This document shows, in pieces, positions 1,644 to 40,244 of a DNA stretch of 42,069 nt. Location of the stretch: IMG/VR virus record IMGVR_UViG_3300009551_000028, positions 1-42,069 of that record; one strand, given 5' to 3'. How positions within the stretch are numbered: position 1 is the stretch's first letter; the number at the start of each line of letters is the position of its first letter. The DNA comes from a virus. Position numbers and translations under genes: made by a program. Below the pieces are notes generated by a model. It made no database searches. It had not been told where the DNA came from and saw only the letters and a program-made list of their open reading frames with translations.

Positions 1644-3407
1644 ATGAAAAAGAAACCCGCGCCCGCCAAGAAGACCAAAGCACCCCAGCAACAGCGCAAC
1701 CTCGCGCTCGTGAACGCGACCGGGCCTCGCTTCGCAGACTGGCCGATCTGGGCGCAAACGTACGATGGGGACACCTGGGCCAACCAGTTCATCATTCGCC
1801 AGCGGTCCCGGGACCTTTTCCAGACTAACCCGTATTTCGTGTCTGGAGCCCTTCAGACGTGCGCAAACACCTTTGGAGACACCGGCATGCAGCTTCGGAT
1901 GCGCATCAAAGAGACCGAGGATCGGATCGTCTATGCTCAGGACGAGAAATGGGCGCTGGTGGAGCATGAGCGTCGGTGGCAGAAGGTGCTCGGCTGGGCC
2001 GCTGAACGCGCCGGACGTGCTGCGCCTCAGTATCGGCTGTTCGAGCGGGACGATCGGGGACAGGCTACGATCCAGGTCGGGCAACCGGACATCTACGCCT
2101 GCAAGGTCATCCAAGAGGCTTGGGCGGAATGGAAGGAGGCGCAGTATTGCGACGTTCGGGGCGCTCGAGATTACAACACCCTTTGCCAGATCCGGCTGGT
2201 GTCGGCGATGAGGGACGGGGACCACTTCATCCGGATGGTGCGGGATCCGAAGGTCAACAAATTCGGCTTCAGCCTTCAGCACATCAACGCCGAGCTGTGC
2301 GACTACTGGTACAACGCTCAACTGAGCAACGGCAACGTGGTCCGAATGGGCATCGAGTACCAATGGCATTCTTGGGGGCTCGGGAAGCCCGTCGCCTACT
2401 ACTTCCTCCGCCAACAACCGATGGACTGGCAATGGAGTCAGCCGGGCATGTCGAGCGGGATCGGCAATGCCGGCATGTATGACCGGATCCCAGCCGACCA
2501 GATCATCCACTACGCACGCTACACCGCCAACGACTCAACGCGGCCGTGGCCCTGGTGTGTGAGTGTCTTTCCGAAGGCGTGGCAGCTCGACAAGTTCGAG
2601 GAAGCCGAGGTCGTGGCGGCTCGGGTGAGTGCCTGCAAGATGGCGTTCCTGGTCAGCGACCTTGTGCCGGAGGGCGGCTTCAGCCAAGGGGCATTCCCGG
2701 CAGAGAGCCTGCCGAACCCGCACAAGCATCGCTCCATGAGCGCCGAGCCTGGAAGCCTTCAGGCCCTCGATTGGGGCGTGAAGGTGCAGGACTGGGATCC
2801 GAAGCATCCCACGCAGAATTTCGAGAGCTTCCGCAAGGGGATGGTGCGCAGCATCGCAGCCGGTATGCCGGGATCAACCTATTCGGGGCTGGCGAGCGAC
2901 TACGAGAACATCAACTTCAGCGCGGGGCGGCTGGAACGTCTGAACATTACCGAGATGTGGGAGCTGATCCAACGCTTCGACATCACGACGGCGGAGCGCC
3001 CGATCTTCGAATCATGGCTTGAGATGGCACTGATGACCGGAGCGATCCCGTTGCCGTTCGCCAAGTGGCAAAAGAAGTACGCGCGGCGTTCGTCCTTCCA
3101 AGGCAAGCGATGGGAGGGTGTGGACCCGATGAAGGAGTCCCAAGCTGCCGCCATGGACATCGCGAACAAGCTGACGAGCCGCACGCGGGTCTGTGCAGGC
3201 CGCGCCATCGATTTTGACGAGAACCTTCTGGAACTCGCTGAGGAGGAGATGAAGATCACCGAGCTTGGCATGGATCCCACGACCACCGCTCAGACCCCGC
3301 AGCCAGCGGAACCCGATCAGGACGACCAGCAGGACACCGGGGATCAGATGGACGAGACACCGAAGAACGGCAAGAAGAACGGGCGACGCGTGACGATCCG
3401 CGCTTGA
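1644..3407 (+). CDS. Portal protein, lambda gpB family (587 aa)
   Basis: Dodecameric portal at the capsid vertex: the channel for DNA and the docking point for terminase and connector. Length is close to the usual 500-550 for this family, with a longer acidic tail. Family features seen: the N-terminal run RQRSRDLFQTNPY, the central SGLASDYENINFSA region, and the C-terminal KRWEGVDPMKESQAA with LTSR, where the portal is anchored. Residues after about 545 are low-complexity Asp/Gln/Lys. The stop codon overlaps the -35 box of the next promoter. Confidence 0.93.
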   Translation: MKKKPAPAKKTKAPQQQRNLALVNATGPRFADWPIWAQTYDGDTWANQFIIRQRSRDLFQTNPYFVSGALQTCANTFGDTGMQLRMRIKETEDRIVYAQDEKWALVEHERRWQKVLGWAAERAGRAAPQYRLFERDDRGQATIQVGQPDIYACKVIQEAWAEWKEAQYCDVRGARDYNTLCQIRLVSAMRDGDHFIRMVRDPKVNKFGFSLQHINAELCDYWYNAQLSNGNVVRMGIEYQWHSWGLGKPVAYYFLRQQPMDWQWSQPGMSSGIGNAGMYDRIPADQIIHYARYTANDSTRPWPWCVSVFPKAWQLDKFEEAEVVAARVSACKMAFLVSDLVPEGGFSQGAFPAESLPNPHKHRSMSAEPGSLQALDWGVKVQDWDPKHPTQNFESFRKGMVRSIAAGMPGSTYSGLASDYENINFSAGRLERLNITEMWELIQRFDITTAERPIFESWLEMALMTGAIPLPFAKWQKKYARRSSFQGKRWEGVDPMKESQAAAMDIANKLTSRTRVCAGRAIDFDENLLELAEEEMKITELGMDPTTTAQTPQPAEPDQDDQQDTGDQMDETPKNGKKNGRRVTIRA

Positions 3408-3431
3408 CATCATTACGCTACGGCGTAAAGG
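3404..3431 (+). promoter_or_regulatory. Family B promoter with TTACGC-N4-GCGTAA operator
   Basis: TTGACA (3404-3409) overlaps the portal stop codon. The palindrome at 3413-3428 (centre TACG) fills most of the 16-bp spacer and runs into the -10 box TAAAGG (3426-3431). Nine bases then lead to the ATG at 3441. A protein dimer bound here would block RNA polymerase. It is one of seven such sites. Confidence 0.7.
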
Positions 3432-3440
3432 TCGGGCGCT

Positions 3441-3668
3441 ATGATTGACCTAACAAATATCAACAACCCGTTCGACCTACCTAGAGTGCAGCAAGTTCTG
3501 CTGTTTACCTTTGGTGCCTTGGAAAAACTCGTAAAAGATGGATTTCTTGAGGGACCAAAGGCGCTGACCGAAAAGGGCCGAGAGATGTTCCGGATCCTTG
3601 ATGACTCTGGATTCCGACCCACATCGGAGGAATTGGCAGAGGCCATTAACGCCATTCAATCCCGATGA
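3441..3668 (+). CDS. Hypothetical small protein (75 aa)
   Basis: Short, mostly helical and mildly acidic. Residues 40-70 could form a helix-turn-helix or winged-helix-like pair of helices (TEKGREMFRI, then TSEELAEAINAI), but this is weak. It is the first gene behind an operator-type promoter and is coupled by ATGA to the glycosyltransferase-like gene. It could be a regulator, possibly of its own promoter; nothing proves that. Confidence 0.65.
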   Translation: MIDLTNINNPFDLPRVQQVLLFTFGALEKLVKDGFLEGPKALTEKGREMFRILDDSGFRPTSEELAEAINAIQSR

Positions 3669-4315
3669 ACGCGATCATCCTCGCCCACGGCGGAGCCCAG
3701 GAGGCCGTCAACCGCCATCTCCCGAACTGGAACGCCGCCTTTGACGGTCTGACGTTCATCAGCCCATCAGACGACCCGCTACCGGGTAGCCTGCCCATCG
3801 GTCTCTCCCAACGGGACGGCACGGGGGCCATCGAGCACCTGCTGTTCGCGATGGCGCTGGCCAGCCGGTTCCCGGTGTGCTGCATCATGGAGTACGATGC
3901 GCTGGTGTTCGGGTTTCCGGGACTTTCGCATTCCATTCCGCCAATGAGATTCGGTGATCGCTTTGTAGGTGATTCGCAAGATCTATTCTGCTCCGAAGTC
4001 TTCCCCAACGAAGACCCGCCCGACGTATTCGCGGCCCCGACCTACGGCCATTGTCCCTGGATCGCCACCGGAGAGACATGGTGGAAGCTCCTGACGGCCG
4101 GTGCGGACTTCCAACGGGGCTTCCCCGACCGATGGCTCGCCCTGGCCTCTATACGGGCCAACGTCGCGTTGAGGGGCATGGAGGGCTCCTACAGCCGGGA
4201 TCGGGGTTTCGACGCGCTGGCGGCCCGTATGGCGCGTTTACGGGGCGCTCCGTGCATTCACGGGGTGAAGACGGCGGAGCAATTTGAGACGATCATGGGG
4301 GAGGATGGGGTATGA
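3665..4315 (+). CDS. Putative glycosyltransferase-like protein (216 aa)
   Basis: The N-terminal strand AIILAHGG and the later stretch CCIMEYDALVF (about residues 72-82), with an acidic EYD where GT-A enzymes carry their metal-binding Asp, suggest a nucleotide-sugar transferase fold. The second half has many Trp, Phe and Pro. I could not identify a precise family. A second, clearer GT-type domain is encoded at 11014, so the phage may modify glycans or its own virion. The surrounding genes are non-structural cargo between portal and capsid. Confidence 0.4.
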   Translation: MNAIILAHGGAQEAVNRHLPNWNAAFDGLTFISPSDDPLPGSLPIGLSQRDGTGAIEHLLFAMALASRFPVCCIMEYDALVFGFPGLSHSIPPMRFGDRFVGDSQDLFCSEVFPNEDPPDVFAAPTYGHCPWIATGETWWKLLTAGADFQRGFPDRWLALASIRANVALRGMEGSYSRDRGFDALAARMARLRGAPCIHGVKTAEQFETIMGEDGV

Positions 4316-4524
4316 ACAAACCGCTGACTGCCGCAATGGATAACGTGCTCGCCTTTCGTTTGGGAAAGGTTGCGCTGGCCGCTGGTACAGCAAAAGCCAT
4401 TGGAGATTACATAGACCGGGGACTGCTTTTGCGACGGTTGATGGAAGAGTCAGGATTTGGGATAGTCGAACTTCCTATTGAGTCCCCTTCTCCCGTTGAC
4501 GGGTCAGCCACTCCCCCGGCATAA
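4312..4524 (+). CDS. Hypothetical small protein (70 aa)
   Basis: No family recognised. One helical stretch (residues 10-45) is amphipathic with Ala, Leu and Gly. The last third is Pro/Ser-rich, and its codons include the palindrome CCCGTTGACGGG at 4492-4503. ATGA overlap with the gene before. The C-terminus may be shaped by the embedded promoter rather than by protein function. Confidence 0.6.
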   Translation: MNKPLTAAMDNVLAFRLGKVALAAGTAKAIGDYIDRGLLLRRLMEESGFGIVELPIESPSPVDGSATPPA

Positions 4525-4525
4525 T
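4492..4525 (+). promoter_or_regulatory. Family A-like promoter reading into the RNA island
   Basis: CCCGTTGACGGG (4492-4503) with TTGACG at 4496-4501, then an 18-bp spacer and CATAAT (4520-4525), a close match to the -10 consensus. No ATG follows at the usual distance. An intrinsic terminator begins at 4548, so a transcript from here would be only about 50-55 bases. It may serve a tiny RNA or set entry to the downstream RNA genes. Confidence 0.45.
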
Positions 4526-4547
4526 GCGCCGGGCAGTTTAGGGTAAT

Positions 4548-4585
4548 GCCCCGTCGTCCAGGGGTGGGCGGCGGGGCTTCTTTTT
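4548..4585 (+). terminator. Intrinsic terminator 1 of the RNA island
   Basis: A 12-bp stem (4548-4559 with 4566-4577, including two G-U pairs), a six-base loop and TTCTTTTT at 4578-4585. The base of the stem is GCCCCG/CGGGGC. This is a strong rho-independent terminator. It ends the operon 3441-4524 and any transcript from the promoter at 4492. Confidence 0.85.
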
Positions 4586-4750
4586 GTACTTGTCAGAACC
4601 CGGACGAAACTCCATCGTGCACCGCGTTCAACAGAACTAACAGTGTGAACTCAACATTTAAAGCTCTGCTGGCCCTTCGGGTGCCAGAGATTGACCCCGG
4701 TGCTCCGGGATTGCCCGTCGGACGACTGTTAGCGTCTGCGGGCTCTTTTT
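4586..4750 (+). ncRNA. Candidate small structured RNA between two terminators
   Basis: This segment follows one strong terminator and ends in another, so an independent transcript is likely. From 4669 there are three stem-loops in a row: CTGGC/GCCAG plus CC/GG closed by a UUCG tetraloop (4669-4687), CCCGG/CCGGG with a four-base loop (4696-4709), and the terminator (4713-4743). I could not find a convincing promoter between 4586 and 4669 (TTGTCA near 4590 has no good -10). No convincing protein is encoded on either strand. No known RNA family recognised. Confidence 0.5.
4713..4750 (+). terminator. Intrinsic terminator 2 of the RNA island
   Basis: GCCCG (4713-4717) pairs with CGGGC (4739-4743), and GACG (4721-4724) with CGTC (4733-4736) across a small internal loop. 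TCTTTTT follows at 4744-4750. The next base is the ATG at 4751, so read-through RNA would have the terminator immediately before the start codon. It could therefore also act as an attenuator for the gene at 4751. Confidence 0.8.
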
Positions 4751-5014
4751 ATGTCTGAGCCCACTACTATCCAAATCCCACGGAAAGGCCCTTGGTTCGT
4801 CGTGAACATGGGCTGTCGCTGGAACCAAAAAGAGATTCAGCGCACACGGAAACCAACCAAGGTCTTCCAATCATTCGCGGAAGCATTCGTATTCGCGAAA
4901 ACTCAGGCCGAAACCCACACGCAAGGACAATACGCCGTCTTTGAATGCGTGGGGGCTGTACGGCCATCTAATGCGCGCAGAAAGGCGCTCCAGAAGGAGC
5001 GAAAGAACAAGTAA
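4751..5014 (+). CDS. Hypothetical small basic protein in the RNA island (87 aa)
   Basis: No family recognised. The first 60 residues look like a compact alpha/beta domain (WFVVNMG, VFQSFAEAFVFAK, YAVFECVG) and the last 20 are strongly basic, as in nucleic-acid-binding proteins. It sits alone between a terminator and a large structured RNA region, so it may bind one of those RNAs. That link is inference from position. The ATG directly follows the U-tract and has no Shine-Dalgarno sequence. Confidence 0.6.
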   Translation: MSEPTTIQIPRKGPWFVVNMGCRWNQKEIQRTRKPTKVFQSFAEAFVFAKTQAETHTQGQYAVFECVGAVRPSNARRKALQKERKNK

Positions 5015-5500
5015 CCCGTTCCATCCCCGGAACGGCTCCCGGAGGATCATACGAAAGCCGAACTTACTACGGGGCATCTTCGGGTGTTCCTGGGGAACTA
5101 CGGTGCGAGGACAGCACTCCTGCCGTGGGCAATGCGAAGCAACTGGCTACATTGGTAGCAGGGGCAACTCTCCCAGCGATGGGAGGGAACGCACGGTTTT
5201 CAAAGCTGATCACGATAGGTATCTTTGCACCGGCATTGCGGCGGGTAAGACCCGTTCCTGCGTTTGCGAATCAGCCTTCTGGGCTCGTAAAGTTCCTGCT
5301 CGGATAGAGCACCAATCCAGAACGCTGAACGGCTAAAGCGACCGATTCCCATTGGGGCTGTGTCTCTCCGTTAGCGCCTCTGAAGTCTTCACCTTCGGGT
5401 GGGGGCTTCGGGGGCAAGCTACGGCAGGCATCTCCCTCTAACCCTTGAAGCTGGGACCCTCCCAGCCCCGAACAACCTCCCGGTACAGTACCGAGAGAAA
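5015..5500 (+). ncRNA. Candidate large structured non-coding RNA (about 490 nt)
   Basis: There is no credible gene in 5015-5543. The + strand forms a dense series of stem-loops: 5016-5022/5029-5035 (7 bp); 5071-5078/5083-5090 with UUCG; 5146-5150/5155-5159; 5168-5175/5180-5187 with a GCGA tetraloop; 5194-5197 and 5201-5205 with 5223-5227 and 5229-5232; 5241-5246/5250-5255; 5297-5301/5307-5311; 5332-5336/5371-5375; 5376-5393/5398-5415 (18 bp, UUCG); 5450-5456/5460-5466; 5477-5493 region with 5 bp plus 3 bp. GNRA and UUCG loops and G-U pairs are marks of selected RNA structure. I do not recognise it as group I or II intron, tmRNA, RNase P or tRNA. Size and phage setting recall the GOLLD and ROOL classes, but I see no specific match. 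No promoter found; it may be processed from a longer transcript. Confidence 0.6.
5376..5415 (+). other. 18-bp UUCG-capped hairpin
   Basis: Bases 5376-5393 pair with 5398-5415 without interruption around a TTCG loop at 5394-5397. Five of the pairs are G-U, which are valid only in RNA from the + strand. It is the most stable element of the structured region. Confidence 0.8.
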
Positions 5501-5504
5501 GGAG

Positions 5505-5535
5505 TTGACTTGTTACGCCAGAGCGTAAATAAATA
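5505..5535 (+). promoter_or_regulatory. Family B promoter and operator for the helicase
   Basis: TTGACT (5505-5510), then the palindrome TTACGC-CAGA-GCGTAA (5513-5528). The -10 lies in the AT-rich run TAAATAAATA (5526-5535); its exact register is uncertain because the spacing is 15 to 18 bp. The helicase ATG is at 5544 in the CGTTATG context shared by several genes of this class. Confidence 0.65.
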
Positions 5536-5543
5536 CATCCGTT

Positions 5544-7061
5544 ATGCAACAGATCGCACTGAAATATTCACCCCACCAAGAACGCATCTTCACCTTCATT
5601 CAGGAGAGCACCAAGAGCGCCACCGTGATCGCCGTCGCCGGAGCGGGGAAGACCACAACGCTCGTGGAAGCGTTCAAGCGCATCCAGTCCCGGGCTCTGA
5701 TGCTCGCCTTCAACAAGTCGATTGCCGATGAACTTAAGACCCGTGTCCCGCAACACGTCACCGTCGCCACCTTTCACAGTGTCGGATTTACCGCTTGGCA
5801 ACGCTACCTTGGCAGCCGGGTGCGAGTCGAAAGCTCCAAAGTGAGCGACATTATGAAGGAAGAAATGAGCCCCAAGGAGGGAGAGCTTTACGGGGCTTTT
5901 GTGCGCAAGATGGTCAGCTTGGCTAAATCGGTCGGGATGGGTTACTTGGTCAACGACGTGGAATCAGAATGGGCGGCACTGGCGGATCACTACGACGTAG
6001 AACCCGAAAGCGAGAGCGCCAGGATTGAAGACGGGATCGCTATCGCTCGGGACATTCTGCAACTCAGCAACGCCGCTTCCAAGCAGGTGATCGACTTTGA
6101 CGACATGCTGTTCATGCCGCTCATCAAAAACGTCACGTTCACCAAATTCCCTTTCGTCTGTATCGACGAGGCGCAGGACACCAACGGCGTACAGCGCGCT
6201 CTGCTGAAGCGCATGATCGAAGCGCCATCGGGGAGGCTGATCGCGGTGGGCGATCCATGCCAAGCAATCTACGGATTCCGGGGCGCTGACTCCTCCGCGA
6301 TGGCGAAGATCAAAGAGGAGTTCGAATGCGAGGAATTGCCCCTCACGGTCTCTTACCGCTGCCCGCGCGCCGTGGTGGCGATGGCACAGACCATTGTTCC
6401 ATACATCGAGGCCAGCGATAAAGCTCCGGAAGGGCTCGTTGTTCACAACCCCGGAAAGGTGAACGACGACGGCAAGTTCGAAGCATGGCCATTCCGTCCG
6501 GAGGATGCGATCCTTTGCCGCAACTCCGCTCCTTTGGTGGCGACCGCCTACCGGCTGATCGCCAAGCGGATCGGATGCCGGATTCTGGGGCGAGACATCG
6601 GGGCTGGGCTCGTAAGCTTGATCAAGCAACTGAACGCCAAGGGCATCGACGCACTACTGGTCAAACTGGACGAATGGGAGGCCCGCGAGATCGACCGTGC
6701 GATGGCCAAGGATCAGTCCACCAAAGCCGAGAGTGTGCGGGATCGGGTGGACTGCATCCGCATCATCATCGGGGCGCTGGCGGAGCGGGAACGCACCGTT
6801 CCGAAACTGATTGAGGCAATCCAGTCGCTTTTTACCGACAAAGCCAACGGCACGATTACGCTTTGCACGGTGCACAAGGCAAAGGGCATGGAGTGGCAGC
6901 GCGTCTACATCCTGGATCACAACAAACTGATGCCCTCCAAATGGGCCAAACGGCCTTGGCAAAAAGAACAGGAAAAAAACCTGATGTATGTTGCCTACAC
7001 ACGAGCCAAATTTGAACTCGCATTCATTGACAGCGATCGGGAGATTCCGGATCCAGCATAA
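5544..7061 (+). CDS. UvrD/Rep-family superfamily 1 DNA helicase (505 aa)
   Basis: ATP-driven 3'-5' DNA unwinding, probably in replication or repair. Motifs in order: Walker A VAGAGKTTT (residues 31-39); DEAQ of Walker B near 208; GDPCQAIYGFRGAD (motif III, about 235-249); SYRCP (motif IV); TVHKAKGMEW (motif V, about 440); MYVAYTRAK (motif VI, about 480-488). At 505 residues it is shorter than UvrD or Rep (around 700), as often in phages. It has its own operator-type promoter and is set between structural genes, so it is probably expressed on a different schedule from them. Confidence 0.93.
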   Translation: MQQIALKYSPHQERIFTFIQESTKSATVIAVAGAGKTTTLVEAFKRIQSRALMLAFNKSIADELKTRVPQHVTVATFHSVGFTAWQRYLGSRVRVESSKVSDIMKEEMSPKEGELYGAFVRKMVSLAKSVGMGYLVNDVESEWAALADHYDVEPESESARIEDGIAIARDILQLSNAASKQVIDFDDMLFMPLIKNVTFTKFPFVCIDEAQDTNGVQRALLKRMIEAPSGRLIAVGDPCQAIYGFRGADSSAMAKIKEEFECEELPLTVSYRCPRAVVAMAQTIVPYIEASDKAPEGLVVHNPGKVNDDGKFEAWPFRPEDAILCRNSAPLVATAYRLIAKRIGCRILGRDIGAGLVSLIKQLNAKGIDALLVKLDEWEAREIDRAMAKDQSTKAESVRDRVDCIRIIIGALAERERTVPKLIEAIQSLFTDKANGTITLCTVHKAKGMEWQRVYILDHNKLMPSKWAKRPWQKEQEKNLMYVAYTRAKFELAFIDSDREIPDPA

Positions 7062-7067
7062 GGCCAA

Positions 7068-7265
7068 ATGGCCACCGTGCTCCGATTCTCAGCCGTGATC
7101 GCCGCCTTAATCAGCTTCCTGATCATCGCCTTGGTGCTCTACCTCATCTGGTGGGTAATCGGGCGCTTCGTGGGCGGAGTGCCGCATCAGATCCTCGGGG
7201 CCATCTTGGCGCTCTGTCTTCTTTTATACGCGCTGCGGATCTTCGGTGGCGTGATCATTTGGTGA
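7068..7265 (+). CDS. Small two-helix membrane protein (65 aa)
   Basis: Two strongly hydrophobic segments (about residues 8-33 and 40-64) are joined by a short Gly/Arg turn, giving a hairpin in the inner membrane. Class II holins look like this, but so do many unrelated small phage membrane proteins. It follows the helicase by six bases and is probably translated from the same mRNA. Other holin candidates are at 21893-23092, nearer the end of the tail genes. Confidence 0.6.
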   Translation: MATVLRFSAVIAALISFLIIALVLYLIWWVIGRFVGGVPHQILGAILALCLLLYALRIFGGVIIW

Positions 7266-7272
7266 AAAGCTG

Positions 7273-7301
7273 TTGACGACAGTAACGCCTTGGCGTAAAA
7301 A
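7273..7301 (+). promoter_or_regulatory. Family B promoter and operator without a nearby ATG
   Basis: TTGACG (7273-7278), a 17-bp spacer, TAAAAA (7296-7301). The operator TAACGC-CTTG-GCGTAA is at 7283-7298. Unlike the other members there is no ATG about nine bases after the -10 box, so the transcript probably starts near 7308 as a leader or small RNA. Confidence 0.65.
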
Positions 7302-7307
7302 GGAGCC

Positions 7308-7467
7308 TCATCGAAAGCACCAAAGCACCAAAGCAATGAAGATGTAGCCATTACACACTGACCCGCGCTGAGCGTCCGATTCGGGTAGGAAGAAGGACAC
7401 GTTATGAGACACATTTAACTCTGAGAGCGGTGCATTGGCCCGAAAGGCGGCACCGCTCTCTCCTTGT
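7308..7467 (+). ncRNA. Candidate leader or small RNA with mini-ORF and terminator-like stem
   Basis: A promoter at 7273 and an 11-bp GC-rich stem at 7423-7460 bracket about 160 bases without a real gene. Inside are two copies of GCACCAAA, a helix ACCCG/CGGGT (7361-7365 with 7382-7386) enclosing CGC-TGA-GCG, and a four-codon ORF (Met-Arg-His-Ile, 7404-7418) ending just before the terminator-like stem. That layout resembles a transcription attenuator, or simply a small RNA. No known family recognised. Confidence 0.45.
7423..7467 (+). terminator. Terminator-like hairpin upstream of the capsid operon
   Basis: GAGAGCGGTGC (7423-7433) pairs perfectly with its complement at 7450-7460, with a three-base-pair inner stem in the loop. 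The tail TCCTTGT is poor in U, so it may be an inefficient terminator or need a factor. It separates the upstream leader RNA from the next promoter at 7471. Confidence 0.55.
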
Positions 7468-7470
7468 ACA

Positions 7471-7503
7471 CCCGTTGACGGGTAGGCGGGACCGTCCTAG
7501 AAG
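7471..7503 (+). promoter_or_regulatory. Family A promoter for the lipoprotein-capsid operon; probably leaderless
   Basis: CCCGTTGACGGG (7471-7482) with TTGACG at 7475-7480, a 17-bp spacer, TAGAAG (7498-7503), then seven bases to the ATG at 7511. Arrangement almost identical to the promoter at 972. There is no Shine-Dalgarno sequence. Confidence 0.7.
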
Positions 7504-7510
7504 GCAGCGC

Positions 7511-7660
7511 ATGAAGCTCGTCCTATTGCTCTGCACCTTCGCCCTCGCCGGCTGCTCGAACATCACCCCAGCCCAACAGGCCAACATCGACAAGGCAGTC
7601 GCCACGGGTCTGAAGATCGCCGTGGATCGGCTCGACAAGCCGCAAGGACTAGCCAAATGA
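7511..7660 (+). CDS. Small lipoprotein (49 aa)
   Basis: A short signal peptide (Lys2, then hydrophobic) leads to a lipobox LAGC with Cys15, so the mature protein would be a lipid-anchored peptide of about 35 residues ending in a helix. The +2 residue is Ser, compatible with outer-membrane sorting. In phages such peptides serve as outer spanins, superinfection blockers or envelope factors. Here it is the first gene of the capsid operon, far from the holin candidates. The start is fixed by the promoter seven bases upstream; a longer reading from 7430 would begin inside the terminator. Confidence 0.7.
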   Translation: MKLVLLLCTFALAGCSNITPAQQANIDKAVATGLKIAVDRLDKPQGLAK

Positions 7661-7785
7661 AGACGCCGAAGGACAAAAAGAAACGTCCTCCGCAAGCGCC
7701 CCGCAGAGCGTGGATGGTGTTGCTGGACTCCGCCAACGCCGAGCCGCACGTCATTCACCGCCGCCCAAATCTCCGCACCCGATGA
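7657..7785 (+). CDS. Hypothetical basic microprotein (42 aa)
   Basis: Starts in an ATGA overlap with the lipoprotein and ends in an ATGA overlap with the capsid gene, which supports it as real. The first 18 residues are almost all Lys, Arg, Pro and Gln. The middle is a short hydrophobic stretch (WMVLLD). No function assigned; it may serve mainly for translational coupling. Confidence 0.6.
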   Translation: MKTPKDKKKRPPQAPRRAWMVLLDSANAEPHVIHRRPNLRTR

Positions 7786-9860
7786 GCACCAAAACACTCA
7801 AGATTCCCGAGACCCTTACCCGCACGGCTACGATCATTCGCGCCGCTGAAGGGGAGGACGCCGAAAAAGGACTGCGATTCAGCGTCAGCAGTGACGAGCC
7901 ATATCTGCGGTACGATTGGTGCGCCGGAGAGGACTACTACGAAGTCTTGGACCATTCCCCCGGTGGTGTTGATGACGCTCGCCTTAAGGCTGGACTACCC
8001 ATCCTTTTCAACCACTCGCGAGACAAACACATCGGTCGCGCTACAGAGTTCACCAACGACGGAAAAAAGATCACTGTTGGCGGGATGCTGTGGAGCGAAA
8101 GCGAGTTCGCGCAGGAAAAGAAAAAGGACATGCTTAACGGCAGCCTGCCCGACACGTCGGTTGGCTACGAAATCCTTGATGATGGGACCTGCGTCGGCGT
8201 GAAGGACGGAATCCCGATCTACAAATTCAAGTGGAGAATCCATGAGGCAAGCGCGGTGACCATTCCGGCGGACACGACGGTCGGCGTTGGACGCCAGCGG
8301 CAGGCACCAGAGGGGATGCAATTCCGAGAAATTCAGGTCAGCGAAAAAAAGTCCGTTGACGGAAAACAGAACACACCGCAGAAGGCGACAACTTCCAAGA
8401 CCATGGCAACCGCTACCGACAACACCACCGAACAACCCGGCCTTTCCGTTGAGGTCGTCGCCGAACGCGAGCGCCAAGCCGTAGAGGGGCACAAGAAGGC
8501 CGAGAAAGAGCGCGTGGCCGCCATCCGCGCCTTCACGAAGGGCTTCAACCGAAAAGCCAACCTCAAGGTCGCCATCGAGGAACTCGAGGCCAAGGCTATC
8601 GACGAGGAGATGACGGTGGACGCCTACCGGGCGCTCGTTCTCGACAACTGGACGGACGCGCAGCGCGTCGAGGGCGCGGACGCACAGGGCGACATCGGCA
8701 TGGGCAAGCAGGACATTCGCCGTTTCAGCTTCGCCAAGTTCCTTTTGGAGTCCCACACGGGCAAGCTGACCGGCGTCGAGAAGGAGGCCAGCGAGGCGGC
8801 GATCAAGAAGTACAGTCGCGACGCCCGTCCAGGCGGCTTCTCGGGCTTCTGCATCCCGCACGACGTGATGAGCCGGCAGTATGCCGAGATCCACGACCTC
8901 GACTCGCGCGGGCTCGCCAACCTCTATGAGGGCGTTCAGCGCGCCGAGAATCGCCTGCAACGCAGCCAGAACGCCACAAGCTTCACGGCGGGCGGATTTA
9001 CGGTGGGCGTCGAGCTGATGGCCGGCAGCTACATCGACCTCCTGCGCAACGCCAAGCTGATCGGCCAAGGGCCTTTCGCTCACATCGAGATTTCCGGCGT
9101 GACTGGCAACATCGCGATTCCGAAGCAGACTTCGACCATCACGACCTACTGGCTCGCCGAGGGTGCGACGGTCAGCGAATCGAACTTCGCGGGCGGTCAA
9201 CTGCTCTTCAGCCCCAAGCGGCTCGTGGCGCGGAACAGCTTCACTAAGCAACTTCTGGCGCAGGGCACGCCGAGCATCGAAATGCTGGTGCGCAACGACA
9301 TGGCGCTCGCGCAGGGCGTCGAAGAGGATCGGGCGTCCATCAACGGCACGGGACTCAACGGCGAGCCCCTCGGCATCGTCAACACCTCGGGTATCGACGC
9401 CAGCGTGACCTATAGCGGCAACTGGACGCAGGCCAAGAGCCTCGCGTTCGAGTATGCGCTGGAAAACGCCAACGTGCGCACGGGTGAAATGGCATTCCTG
9501 ACGACCCCTCTGACCAAGAGCTACGCTCGCGGTACGGTACAGGTCACTTCCTCGACGTTCCCGATCTACATCTGGATGCAGGACGCCAACGGCCCGGTGA
9601 TCAGCGGCGTGCGTGGCGGCGTGGTCAACGGCTACCCGGCCTACGCGACCAAGAACGCCCCCACGAGCAACGTCGTGATCTTCGGCGTCTGGAACAACAA
9701 CTTCACGCAGGTCCGCTGGGCCGGCATCGATGTCGTGGTGAACCCCTACACCGGGGACGCCTCCGAGATCATCTACGTCACCATGACGCAGTGGATGGAT
9801 TTCGGCATCCGGTACCCGCAGGCATTTTCGGTGAGCACCGACGCCCCGACATCGCCATAG
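7782..9860 (+). CDS. Prohead protease fused to HK97-fold major capsid protein (692 aa)
   Basis: Residues 1-175 are a caudovirus prohead protease: LFNH (His78), DTSVGY (Ser127) and WRIHEASAVTIPAD match the U9/S78-type protease core with its catalytic His and Ser. Residues 208 onward are a capsid protein: a helical, charged delta-like or scaffold region (about 208-330), then an HK97 fold (GGFTV, IAIPKQTSTITTYWLAEG, and ING.GLNGEPLGIVN-type segments). The protease would cut itself free and remove the delta region. The start at 7782 is chosen over 7710 because it makes an ATGA junction with the upstream microprotein. An internal promoter and start (8352, 8403) could also supply the capsid part alone. 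Confidence 0.9.
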   Translation: MSTKTLKIPETLTRTATIIRAAEGEDAEKGLRFSVSSDEPYLRYDWCAGEDYYEVLDHSPGGVDDARLKAGLPILFNHSRDKHIGRATEFTNDGKKITVGGMLWSESEFAQEKKKDMLNGSLPDTSVGYEILDDGTCVGVKDGIPIYKFKWRIHEASAVTIPADTTVGVGRQRQAPEGMQFREIQVSEKKSVDGKQNTPQKATTSKTMATATDNTTEQPGLSVEVVAERERQAVEGHKKAEKERVAAIRAFTKGFNRKANLKVAIEELEAKAIDEEMTVDAYRALVLDNWTDAQRVEGADAQGDIGMGKQDIRRFSFAKFLLESHTGKLTGVEKEASEAAIKKYSRDARPGGFSGFCIPHDVMSRQYAEIHDLDSRGLANLYEGVQRAENRLQRSQNATSFTAGGFTVGVELMAGSYIDLLRNAKLIGQGPFAHIEISGVTGNIAIPKQTSTITTYWLAEGATVSESNFAGGQLLFSPKRLVARNSFTKQLLAQGTPSIEMLVRNDMALAQGVEEDRASINGTGLNGEPLGIVNTSGIDASVTYSGNWTQAKSLAFEYALENANVRTGEMAFLTTPLTKSYARGTVQVTSSTFPIYIWMQDANGPVISGVRGGVVNGYPAYATKNAPTSNVVIFGVWNNNFTQVRWAGIDVVVNPYTGDASEIIYVTMTQWMDFGIRYPQAFSVSTDAPTSP
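8352..8384 (+). promoter_or_regulatory. Possible internal promoter for the capsid domain alone
   Basis: TCCGTTGACGGA (8352-8363) is the same palindrome as at other family A sites, with both outer positions changed in compensating fashion. TTGACG (8356-8361), 17 bp, CAGAAG (8379-8384). The in-frame ATG at 8403, at the join between protease and capsid domains, follows after 18 bases. It would give a separate 485-residue capsid precursor. This is inference from pattern matching inside a coding sequence. Confidence 0.4.
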
Positions 9861-10769: not shown

Positions 10770-10802
10770 CCCGTTGACGGGGAGAACGCCAGAGCGTAAA
10801 AG
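10770..10802 (+). promoter_or_regulatory. Hybrid promoter with both palindromes
   Basis: CCCGTTGACGGG (10770-10781) supplies TTGACG at 10774-10779. After 17 bp comes TAAAAG (10797-10802). The spacer also holds the operator GAACGC-CAGA-GCGTAA (10784-10799). It is the only site with both elements. The ATG at 10812 lies nine bases after the -10 box, with a purine-rich GGGAGG close by. Confidence 0.7.
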
Positions 10803-29774: not shown

Positions 29775-29792
29775 GAAAGACGAAAATAGTTC

Positions 29793-29820
29793 TTGCGTTA
29801 ATTACGCCGTAGCGTAAAAA
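29793..29820 (+). promoter_or_regulatory. Family B promoter and operator
   Basis: TTGCGT (29793-29798), 16 bp, TAAAAA (29815-29820). The operator TTACGC-CGTA-GCGTAA is at 29802-29817. The ATG at 29830 follows in CTCGTTATG. Bases 29792-29817 are repeated identically at 38934-38959. Confidence 0.65.
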
Positions 29821-36982: not shown

Positions 36983-38896
36983 ATGAGCCCAGCCCTAACC
37001 GCCAAAGTAGCCGCCCAGACCCTCGCGCTCCTCTACGCGTGCCTACCGTGTGCGCAGCTACAGGCTACCGGAGACCCGGCCCGCTGGGCAAAGGAGAAGC
37101 GATACTTTGCCCCCGGGGAAAGTCCCCTGTATCGGGACCGGACCAAGTTCACCTTCGAGAATGCCCCTTGGTGCGAGGAGCCGTGTCGAGAGGCGGTGAA
37201 CACCGAGAACGAATTGATGGTCCTTTGGTTTGGAAGCAACCTTGGCAAAACGGGCGGCGTGATGATGAACGTGTTGGGCTACACCATCGACGAGGCCCCC
37301 GGGGGTTGTCTGGTGTCCTATAAGACGCAGGAACAGGCGGAGAAGTTCGTCCGGAACACCGTCAATCCGACGATCCAAGCCTGTCCGGCCCTTCTGGACC
37401 GTGTAGCGCCCGCCAAGAGCCGGGATTCAGCCAATACGGTGTCCTACAAGAAGTTCCCGGGCGGCTATGTGTCCTTTATCGGCACGGAGAGCATCACGGG
37501 CTTCCGACTGAACCGCGCCCCGGTGGTGATGGGGGACGAAATTGACTCTTACGAGGGGAAAGTCGGCGAGGAAGGCGATCCGGTGGACCTTTTGCTGCGA
37601 CGCGCGGACGGTTTCCCGAACTCCATCAAGATCCTGTCCAGTACGGCCACCACCAAGGGCCGGTCCCGGATCGAAAAGTTCTACGAACGGTCCGATCAGC
37701 GAAAATGGTTCATCCTTTGCCCTTCCTGCGGGGCGGAACAGCTGATCCGCAGGGGTAATATTCGCTGGCCAGAAGGCAAACCGGAGGAAGCGCGCTGGTT
37801 TTGCGAGTCCTGCGGGGATCCACACACCGACGAACAGCGCCGGCAGGCCGTGAAAGCCGGGAGATGGAAGCCCACCGCCCCTTTTACGGGCACACGCGGC
37901 TATTGGCTGAACGGTTTCAACTCCCTGATGCCATGCAATCCCGGGTATCGGAACCGTCTGCACCAATGGGCGAAGGAAATCATGGCCGCTCCGAAGGCCG
38001 CCGACCCCACGGAGGCCCGGAAAGTCCTGGTCCAATGCCTGGATACCGAGACTTGGCAGGATGATGAGGATGCCAAGCCCGAATGGAAGGAGATCGCTGA
38101 CCGTCGCGAGCAATGGGACAAGCTGCCGAACGGGATCATCTGGCTCTCGGCCGGCGTAGACGTGCATCCAGACCGCTTGGAGGCCACGGTTCACGGCTGG
38201 GGGCGCTCTGATGAGTCTTGGACACTGGAGCACATGGTGCTCAGCGGGGATCCGAGGGAACCGGAGGTCTGGGGACGTTTGGAGGCCGCCCTGTATGCCC
38301 CTAGAACGCGCCAGGATGGCTGTACACCGCGTTTGATCGCCGTGGGGGTGGATACAGGCCACCCGCCGACGCAAAGGCAGGCGTACGCGTTTATTCGGCC
38401 CCGGCAGGCCAAGAACTGGTTCGCCCTCAAGGGCAGCTCCATGGTGGACGCCCCGATCATCGTTCGACCCAAGAAAGGGACGACAGTTGACCGCGTGAAA
38501 CTCCTGACGGTCGGCGGACACCGAGTGAAGGGGCTGATTTACGACCGGGTCTCGATCGTCAGCAACGCCACGCCGGGCTTCATGCACTTCCACGCCGCAC
38601 TTCCGGACGCGTATTTTCAGCAACTCCTATCGGAGGACTCATATCCGGTCTGGAAAGCTGGCGTCCGGCTGCGGGAGTTCCGGAAACCCACGCAGAGCAC
38701 CCGCAACGAGGCGCTGGATTGCGCCACCTACAGCTATGCGGCCCTCAACGCTCTTGGCCCGATCAATCCCGACGCGGAGAACGCCCGATTGCTGGCGGAG
38801 AAGACGCAGCGAGAGGAACAGCAACAGCAGGCCGAGGAACCGTACGAAGCACCGAGGCAACAGGGTTTCGTGCGCGCGGGCGGCTGGCGGATCTGA
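36983..38896 (+). CDS. Terminase large subunit, lambda GpA family (637 aa)
   Basis: ATP-driven DNA packaging and cutting. Walker A GSNLGKTGG (about residues 79-87), Walker B VVMGDEID (about 179-186), a zinc site CPSCG ... CESCG (about 245-277), and nuclease domain starting at GVDVHPDRLEA (about 390). Length agrees with lambda gpA (641). Its relatives cut at cos sites; the 123-bp end repeat here is therefore more likely an assembly overlap. Confidence 0.93.
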   Translation: MSPALTAKVAAQTLALLYACLPCAQLQATGDPARWAKEKRYFAPGESPLYRDRTKFTFENAPWCEEPCREAVNTENELMVLWFGSNLGKTGGVMMNVLGYTIDEAPGGCLVSYKTQEQAEKFVRNTVNPTIQACPALLDRVAPAKSRDSANTVSYKKFPGGYVSFIGTESITGFRLNRAPVVMGDEIDSYEGKVGEEGDPVDLLLRRADGFPNSIKILSSTATTKGRSRIEKFYERSDQRKWFILCPSCGAEQLIRRGNIRWPEGKPEEARWFCESCGDPHTDEQRRQAVKAGRWKPTAPFTGTRGYWLNGFNSLMPCNPGYRNRLHQWAKEIMAAPKAADPTEARKVLVQCLDTETWQDDEDAKPEWKEIADRREQWDKLPNGIIWLSAGVDVHPDRLEATVHGWGRSDESWTLEHMVLSGDPREPEVWGRLEAALYAPRTRQDGCTPRLIAVGVDTGHPPTQRQAYAFIRPRQAKNWFALKGSSMVDAPIIVRPKKGTTVDRVKLLTVGGHRVKGLIYDRVSIVSNATPGFMHFHAALPDAYFQQLLSEDSYPVWKAGVRLREFRKPTQSTRNEALDCATYSYAALNALGPINPDAENARLLAEKTQREEQQQQAEEPYEAPRQQGFVRAGGWRI

Positions 38897-38934
38897 GTCC
38901 CGGCAATGGGATCGGAAATAGTTCGAGAAATGTC

Positions 38935-38962
38935 TTGCGTTAATTACGCCGTAGCGTAATCT
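38935..38962 (+). promoter_or_regulatory. Family B promoter and operator
   Basis: TTGCGT (38935-38940), 16 bp, TAATCT (38957-38962); operator TTACGC-CGTA-GCGTAA at 38944-38959. The ATG at 38972 follows in CTCGTTATG. The same 26 bases as at 29792. Confidence 0.65.
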
Positions 38963-39303: not shown

Positions 39304-39519
39304 ATGAAAACTGACACCGCTCCCGAACCGCTTTTCAAACAGGGTCAACGCGTCCGCATTAAGCGCGAATGGTGCGACTCGGATTCCGAGGCTCAGATGA
39401 TTTTTGTGTGCCGCGAAGATGAAGAATTGGGGCGCGTGGACATTTCCTTGGAGGGCGACAAGAGCTATATTGTTCCGCGCGAAACCGTGGACGTCAAAAT
39501 GCTGGAGGCCGTGAAATGA
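39304..39519 (+). CDS. Hypothetical small protein (71 aa)
   Basis: ATG 39304 is chosen over 39274 because the earlier codons are Pro/Arg-rich and follow the hairpin directly. Beta-rich with KGQRVRIKREW-type start (FKQGQRVRIKREW), an SH3/KOW-like pattern. ATGA overlap with the next gene. Role unknown. Confidence 0.55.
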   Translation: MKTDTAPEPLFKQGQRVRIKREWCDSDSEAQMIFVCREDEELGRVDISLEGDKSYIVPRETVDVKMLEAVK

Positions 39520-40244
39520 GAATCTTGGTTGCCTGCGAGTGCTCAGGAACGGTGCGCGAGGCTTTCCGCGCCCGGGGCCATGACGCGTGGAGTTGCGACA
39601 TTTTGCCTGCGGTAGACGGTTCACCATTCCACTTACAAGGAGATGTGTTATTTGCTCTGAAAGAAGGAAACGGGTTTTATTTCAAAGCTCTTAAGAAGCA
39701 TACCCGGTGGGATATGATGATCGCACATCCTCCATGCGACTTCCTCACCAATAGCGCCGCATGGGCCTACGCAGACCCAAATTTTGAGAAGTATCCGGGC
39801 GTTGGATACCATCAACAGGTGAAGCGCGGAACGTTGACCGGAGCTTGCCGACGCGACGCTAGAGAAAAAGCTGTGGAGTTTTTCCTATCGCTATGGAATT
39901 GCGGGATTAAACGCGTTTGCTTGGAGAATCCCATCGGTTTCATGAACACACTCCCGGCGATGGGTGGCATTCGTCCGCAGATCATTCAACCCTACGAATT
40001 TGGTGATGATGCCAGCAAGGCAACCTGTCTATGGCTGAAGGGGTTGCCTCCATTGCGTCCCACAAAGCGACTTCCTGGCCGGATCGTAGAATGGAAGGGA
40101 AAGAAAGTGGAGCGGTGGTCGAATCAGACCGATTCCGGGCAGAACAACCTTACGCCATCCGGCAACCGCGCCGGCGTGCGCGCCGTGACTTACCCCGGCA
40201 TTGCCCAAGCCATGGCTGACCAATGGCCTAGCCCCGCCCTATGA
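39516..40244 (+). CDS. C5-cytosine methyltransferase-like protein (242 aa)
   Basis: N-terminal SAM-like start (MRILVACECSGTVREAF), a PPC motif HPPCDFLTNS (Cys74, position of the catalytic Cys), then CLENP near residue 134 in place of the ENV motif. This family is common in phages and is related to cytosine methyltransferases, but its target recognition part is short; activity is not proven. Confidence 0.75.
   Translation: MRILVACECSGTVREAFRARGHDAWSCDILPAVDGSPFHLQGDVLFALKEGNGFYFKALKKHTRWDMMIAHPPCDFLTNSAAWAYADPNFEKYPGVGYHQQVKRGTLTGACRRDAREKAVEFFLSLWNCGIKRVCLENPIGFMNTLPAMGGIRPQIIQPYEFGDDASKATCLWLKGLPPLRPTKRLPGRIVEWKGKKVERWSNQTDSGQNNLTPSGNRAGVRAVTYPGIAQAMADQWPSPAL

Follow-up and report, generated by a model that had tools for sequence, protein, structure and literature searches.

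A candidate orphan structured RNA of about 0.5 kb in the portal–capsid cargo site of a phage

Introduction

Only a small number of large structured RNAs are known from phages. Most have no known function, and two assemble into RNA cages that contain no protein. ROOL, an RNA of phages and prophages, forms a homo-octameric RNA nanocage, and its function is unknown (PMC12286853). GOLLD is a large, ornate phage RNA with no known protein partner; many of its members exceed 800 nt, its 3′ half is conserved, and it often, but not always, lies near tRNA genes (PMC12286853). In phage ICP1, a non-coding transcript of ~800 nt is the most abundant transcript by RNA-seq (PMC7567579).

Here we describe a gene-free stretch of a phage genome that is predicted to fold into a well-defined RNA. 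The candidate resembles ROOL in being a large, gene-free structured RNA of similar size range in a phage or prophage genome, but it has no covariance-model match and its phage has no tRNA island. With GOLLD it shares the setting of a large RNA in a phage; it is ~507 nt long, has no covariance-model match and has no tRNA nearby. A length above 800 nt is reached only if 4525–5543 is taken whole, which includes a coding ORF. The likeness to the ICP1 RNA, a gene-free gap in a lytic phage without tRNAs, is an analogy without sequence similarity: the present candidate is known from sequence alone, and blastn against phage records found no homologue. Structured mRNA leaders also lie directly upstream of a gene, but here a repeated promoter/operator stands between the structure and the start of the downstream helicase gene. 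In kind, the candidate is of the sort of the GOLLD, ROOL and ICP1 RNAs, and membership of GOLLD and ROOL is rejected by model search. It presently stands as a single-sequence candidate. If it is an RNA, it would be a sequence-unrelated example from a barely studied host phylum, pointing to repeated origin of such RNAs and their spread as cargo.

Results

A divergent tailed phage with a likely verrucomicrobial host

The analysed sequence is an IMG/VR virus record of 42,069 bases, and we refer to this whole stretch as the window. It carries the gene set of a tailed phage, including a lambda-type portal (1644–3407), a GpA terminase (36983–38896), a DnaB helicase and a capsid gene encoding a protease/capsid fusion (7710–9860), and its identity to known phages is only about 25–37%. 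The closest fetched relatives by capsid identity are L094 (66%), L095 (54%) and L014 and L096 (48%). Because a prophage-like relative, L166, sits in a Spartobacteria (Verrucomicrobiota) MAG, the host is likely to be a member of the Verrucomicrobiota. On the L166 contig, positions 4534–9750 hold a terminase, a portal and the first third of a capsid gene; the capsid match spans residues 23–273 only, and L166 may thus be a degraded prophage. ARAGORN found zero tRNA and zero tmRNA genes within the 42 kb.

The longest gap contains no protein gene

Codon-score gene calling identified 5015–5543 (529 nt) as the largest true gap of the genome, bearing out the first-pass annotation, which had called this region the longest non-coding stretch. 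A nominally larger gap (39520–40240) is in fact ORF 39516–40244, which was missed through the overlap rule. The stretch lies between two genes:

4751–5014, + strand: ORF of 87 aa (codon score 16.1 bits)
5544–7061, + strand: UvrD-like SF1 helicase (phrog_1967), the neighbour downstream of the structured stretch

All six frames of 5015–5543 have negative coding scores and 3–7 stops each; verified genes all score positive. Six-frame translations of the stretch gave zero matches to PHROG. The annotated absence of a protein gene therefore holds, the stretch has no conserved reading frame of the kind that would speak against a structured phage non-coding RNA, and a decayed gene is ruled out by the same negative scores and lack of PHROG matches.

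The + strand folds more stably than shuffled sequence

A comparison with shuffled sequence, which the first-pass annotation had proposed, revealed an excess of stability on the + strand: 5012–5545 folds at −219.5 kcal/mol (z −3.63), and 0 of 100 shuffles were as stable. The − strand of the same region gave a z of −0.92. Other shuffle runs gave z values of −3.5 to −3.6, with about −3.5 for the fixed interval 5015–5543. For 5007–5513, the MFE was −215.8 versus −185.8 ± 6.1 in shuffles, a z of −4.9 that is optimistic because these boundaries were picked from the fold. The mean probability of its MFE pairs was 0.91 (0.64 ± 0.14 in shuffles) and its entropy 0.37 (1.04 ± 0.25 in shuffles), and 0 of 160 shuffles equalled it in energy, pair probability or entropy. 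Along the genome, z values are negative between about 4500 and 5540, and within the helicase gene they are back at ~0; the whole block 4525–5543 has a z of −5.6. The most extreme of the + strand 529-nt tiles (n = 74), 4762–5290 (z −4.2), overlaps the gene-free stretch.

The number of stems, by comparison, is ordinary. The stretch has 13 symmetric local stems, and 75 other tiles of this genome have 11.0 ± 1.6, with a maximum of 14. The earlier claim that so dense a set of stems would be improbable in ordinary phage DNA therefore did not survive, and we dropped stem counts as evidence for an RNA. What stands out is the total stability and the sharp definition of the fold. A few coding tiles, such as that at 9201, also show low z and sharp ensembles; tile 9201 is as well defined as 5007–5513 and is the sole such tile among 208 on the + strand. 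Overall, we found a moderate folding excess over shuffles and regard the fold data as moderate evidence for an RNA, although a single-sequence excess by itself is weak evidence.

These measurements also bear on a different explanation, that the stretch is non-functional intergenic cargo DNA, a GC-rich and hairpin-rich indel remnant at a variable site that folds well because of its base composition and a single long, imperfect inverted repeat. Consistent with such a remnant, z is only −2.3 once an 18-bp hairpin (5376–5415) is removed, an excess that is weaker but still present, and the stem counts are ordinary. However, 529 gene-free bases are unusual for a packed genome, and the excess is both strand-specific and distributed: z is −2.6 for 5007–5342 alone, −3.8 for 5128–5238 and −4.4 for 5245–5543. 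A decaying repeat also predicts as many A–C as G–U positions, whereas the 18-bp hairpin has five G–U and zero A–C positions. Summed over all symmetric stems of 4586–5543, however, there is no G–U bias (18 GU versus 20 AC).

Predicted architecture of the candidate RNA

The stretch is predicted to fold into a multi-branch junction, closed by a helix, P1, that pairs 5007–5012 with 5508–5513. Its parts are as follows:

5007–5513, + strand: structured RNA candidate, multi-branch junction closed by P1 (predicted fold; 0 of 160 shuffles)
5007–5012, + strand: P1 5′ strand ACAAGU, pairing with 5508–5513 (ACUUGU) (P 0.86 in 5000–5545)
5016–5035, + strand: hairpin 1, 7 bp (CCGUUCC/GGAACGG) (P 0.99)
5037–5096, + strand: arm 2 (P 0.81–0.96)
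5098–5128, + strand: arm 3, 8 + 3 bp (P 0.85–0.92)
5129–5239, + strand: domain 4, multi-branch, closed by GCAAUGC/GCAUUGC (closing helix P 0.97)
5240–5256, + strand: hairpin 5, 7 bp (P 0.88)
5259–5340, + strand: arm 6 (UCAGC.UUCUGG/CCAGAA.GCUGA) (two core helices P 0.98–0.99)
5343–5507, + strand: domain 7, with hairpins 5376–5415, 5450–5466 and 5481–5493 (closing helix P 0.91)

Several inner parts are predicted with high probability. The UUCG-capped 18-bp hairpin has a P of 1.00 and is robust to the choice of flanks, the domain 4 closing helix keeps a P of 0.94–0.96 under all flanks tried, and pair probabilities are near 1 in the hairpin within domain 4 that is capped by GCGA, a GNRA loop (5168–5187). 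Of the two UUCG caps and one GNRA cap annotated earlier, the GNRA loop and the UUCG of 5376–5415 are retained. The other UUCG (5079–5082, arm 2) could locally cap an 8-bp hairpin, but in the best fold it is paired with CGAA at 5052–5055 (P 0.96). The probability of P1 falls to 0.31–0.57 with longer flanks, and its 5′ strand overlaps the final codons of the 87-aa ORF.

Searches for known RNA families and homologues

Rfam searches with cmscan returned no family match for the whole window at gathering thresholds, and only sub-threshold chance matches for 4500–5700 at E ≤ 10. Group I and group II introns were rejected because the Rfam intron models were unmatched at both thresholds, and tmRNA, tRNA and RNase P because neither ARAGORN nor Rfam matched. 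Both programs thus agree with the first-pass annotation, which could match the region to none of these; its statement that no feature ties the stretch to GOLLD or ROOL is likewise supported, as their covariance models were unmatched at gathering thresholds and at E ≤ 10. That the stretch might be a diverged member of GOLLD, ROOL, the group I or II introns, RNase P or tmRNA, as its ROOL/GOLLD-like size and phage setting might suggest (PMC12286853), is largely refuted by these searches, and we give the idea almost no credence.

We found no homologue by blastn against phage and plasmid records, by blastn and nhmmer across 164 fetched loci, or by scanning viral and GTDB contigs for DNA patterns, an approach that detects exact matches only and may let distant relatives escape. 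Single-sequence covariance models of domains 3–5 (R1) and of domain 7 (R2) found no relative across 99 sources and Verrucomicrobiota genomes, and blastn in overlapping sets of 388 and 384 genomes found no homologue; the genome searches had no positive control and may likewise have missed distant relatives. In all, there were zero homologues among phages, plasmids, about 170 loci and several hundred Verrucomicrobiota genomes. Two weak matches were discarded as being at the chance level expected over so many genomes: L175 covers 37 nt with an insertion within the hairpin, and L176 scores 25.9 bits and has neither the 18-bp hairpin nor the adjacent second domain. Four helicase homologues (L002–L005, 33–51% identity), read directly, have no such leader; 54 further helicase loci gave no match by blastn and nhmmer, nor did the 48 of these also searched with R1 and R2. 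We also looked to genus-level relatives as a source of covariation, but even the best of them, L094, does not carry the block.

Promoter-like elements flank the structured stretch

Immediately 3′ of the structure lies a putative promoter/operator that recurs in the genome, together with a second repeated element:

5505–5535, + strand: putative promoter/operator of the helicase gene, a TTGAC box followed by a dyad (ATG at 5544)
3404–3428, 5505–5528, 7273–7298, 10774–10799, 29792–29817 and 38934–38959: box-plus-dyad sites
973, 4493, 7472, 10771, 13593, 15836, 18071 and 36954: second element, CCCGTTGACGGG

The dyad at 5513–5528 (TTACGC-CAGA-GCGTAA; general form TTACGC-N4-GCGTAA) has seven copies in the window at up to two mismatches, where 0.81 would be expected (0 of 100 shuffles). 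Just before six of the seven stands a TTGAC or TTGCG box, and an ATG follows about 28–31 nt downstream in five. The combined element was absent from the fetched relatives. Its repetition suggests a single regulator of scattered cargo genes. The second element occurs in eight copies on the + strand and one on the − strand. Seven of the nine TTGACGGG copies stand 26–38 nt ahead of a gene start, and CCCGTTGACGGG is often followed by TAGAAGG ~17 nt later and by an ATG 26–38 nt downstream. It is also present in L094 (1054 and 1736), where it lies upstream of the counterpart of window gene 1011. From these patterns we infer promoter function for 5505–5535 and the repeated elements. The 3′ end of the structured segment had accordingly been misassigned, 5505–5543 being the putative repeated promoter/operator.

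We found no promoter-like site between 4691 and 5505, so RNA over 5015–5500 would stem from read-through of upstream promoters. No intrinsic terminator was found directly 3′ of the structured stretch. An RNA acting in cis, as the helicase mRNA leader or the 3′ UTR of the 87-aa ORF, and tuning translation or stability, would suit an element that abuts both genes, has no 3′ intrinsic terminator and is carried on read-through RNA, with a GGAG (5501–5504) inside a predicted helix. Nevertheless, the putative helicase promoter is located 3′ of the structure, a placement that speaks against a leader of the helicase mRNA; the GGAG is 39 nt from the helicase ATG, and SD sites are used by only 10 of the 47 genes of this phage; and the helicase homologues L002–L005 do without a leader. 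The structured part is, on this sequence evidence, probably not a helicase leader, and we consider cis action in general improbable.

The dyads might instead mark an element acting as DNA, such as a replication origin or a packaging or recombination site. The stretch is dyad-rich and gene-free, it adjoins a helicase gene, and its terminal dyad (5513–5528) is repeated in the genome. A DNA palindrome would, however, leave the + strand-specific fold excess unexplained, the cumulative GC skew has its extrema elsewhere (maximum 6896, minimum 34621), and the stretch holds no repeat family except the operator. We therefore judge a DNA element very unlikely.

Further features lie upstream of the 87-aa ORF:

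4496–4525, + strand: promoter-like TTGACG-N18-CATAAT with the CCCGTTGACGGG element (by sequence; no gene begins at the customary spacing)
4548–4585, + strand: intrinsic terminator T1, 13-bp stem and T-run
4586–4757, + strand: second structured gene-free piece (z −3.8 for 4525–4760)

Transcription within 4493–4585 would meet T1, a strong terminator, within ~20–50 nt, possibly giving an attenuated or very short RNA. The second structured piece ends in a terminator-like hairpin and T5 (about 4716–4749); it holds a CUUCGG hairpin, and a CUAACAG able to pair with CUGUUAG of the terminator loop. The 87-aa ORF has no relatives or database matches. Among 124 shadow ORFs at least 80 aa long, a single one scores 9 bits or more, versus 16.1 for this ORF, which is thus probably a real gene by codon usage. 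We rejected 4525–5543 as one RNA, despite its z of −5.6, because of the codon signal of this ORF and the two internal terminators.

The stretch occupies a variable cargo site

In this phage 4.3 kb separate portal and capsid, with a cargo hotspot at 3441–7700 that has the portal gene on one side and the capsid gene on the other. The capsid gene directly follows the portal gene in seven known relatives, and at most one small gene separates the two in L014 and L095. In L094, cargo gene 1 is 68% identical to 3665–4315, and the equivalent site lacks the 87-aa ORF along with both the gene-free stretch and the helicase gene. It holds a gene that we take to be DUF7694-like and, at 5108–5614, what is presumably an HNH-like endonuclease; the two were assigned by visual inspection, with no search behind the DUF7694-like one. 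The insert with the gene-free block is thus missing from L094, L095, L014 and the known relatives. Because these have other genes or a near-adjacent portal and capsid at the site, the gene-free stretch is, judged by sequence comparison, a recent and lineage-specific acquisition. Both the variability of the site and the orphan status of the stretch also fit the non-functional remnant described above, which we regard as the main alternative, if on the unlikely side.

The reading we prefer, to which we give about an even chance, is an orphan, lineage-specific structured phage non-coding RNA of ~0.5 kb, encoded on the + strand as portal–capsid cargo. This model is supported by the long gene-free gap, the excess confined to the + strand and the well-defined fold, by the absence of the insert from relatives, and by the existence of large gene-free RNAs in other phages. 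It is weakened by coding tiles that are as extreme, the ordinary stem count, boundaries set after folding and the flank sensitivity of P1, as well as by the lack of an own promoter, two terminators upstream, no tRNA nearby and no homologue. Such an RNA would arise when transcription from cargo promoters further upstream, at 3404 or 4496, reads through into the stretch. As no intrinsic terminator follows the stretch, the fold of the RNA may be what trims or protects it. It might then act in trans as a folded RNA, as a scaffold or as a binder of protein or ribosomes; this is the least supported step and is proposed by likeness to suggestions made for GOLLD, ROOL and the ICP1 transcript. We think it doubtful that the orphan RNA founds a class of its own among large and self-contained phage RNAs, as a Verrucomicrobiota phage moron with a particle or scaffold role that is distinct in sequence from GOLLD, ROOL and OLE.

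The other cargo genes downstream are of separate interest. The UvrD-like helicase is placed among head genes, and its PADLOC similarity to GajB is weak and generic to UvrD helicases. It is followed by a short membrane protein (7068–7265) and a lipoprotein-like small ORF (7511–7660; MKLVLLLCTFALAGC...), the latter a possible superinfection-exclusion or lysis cargo.
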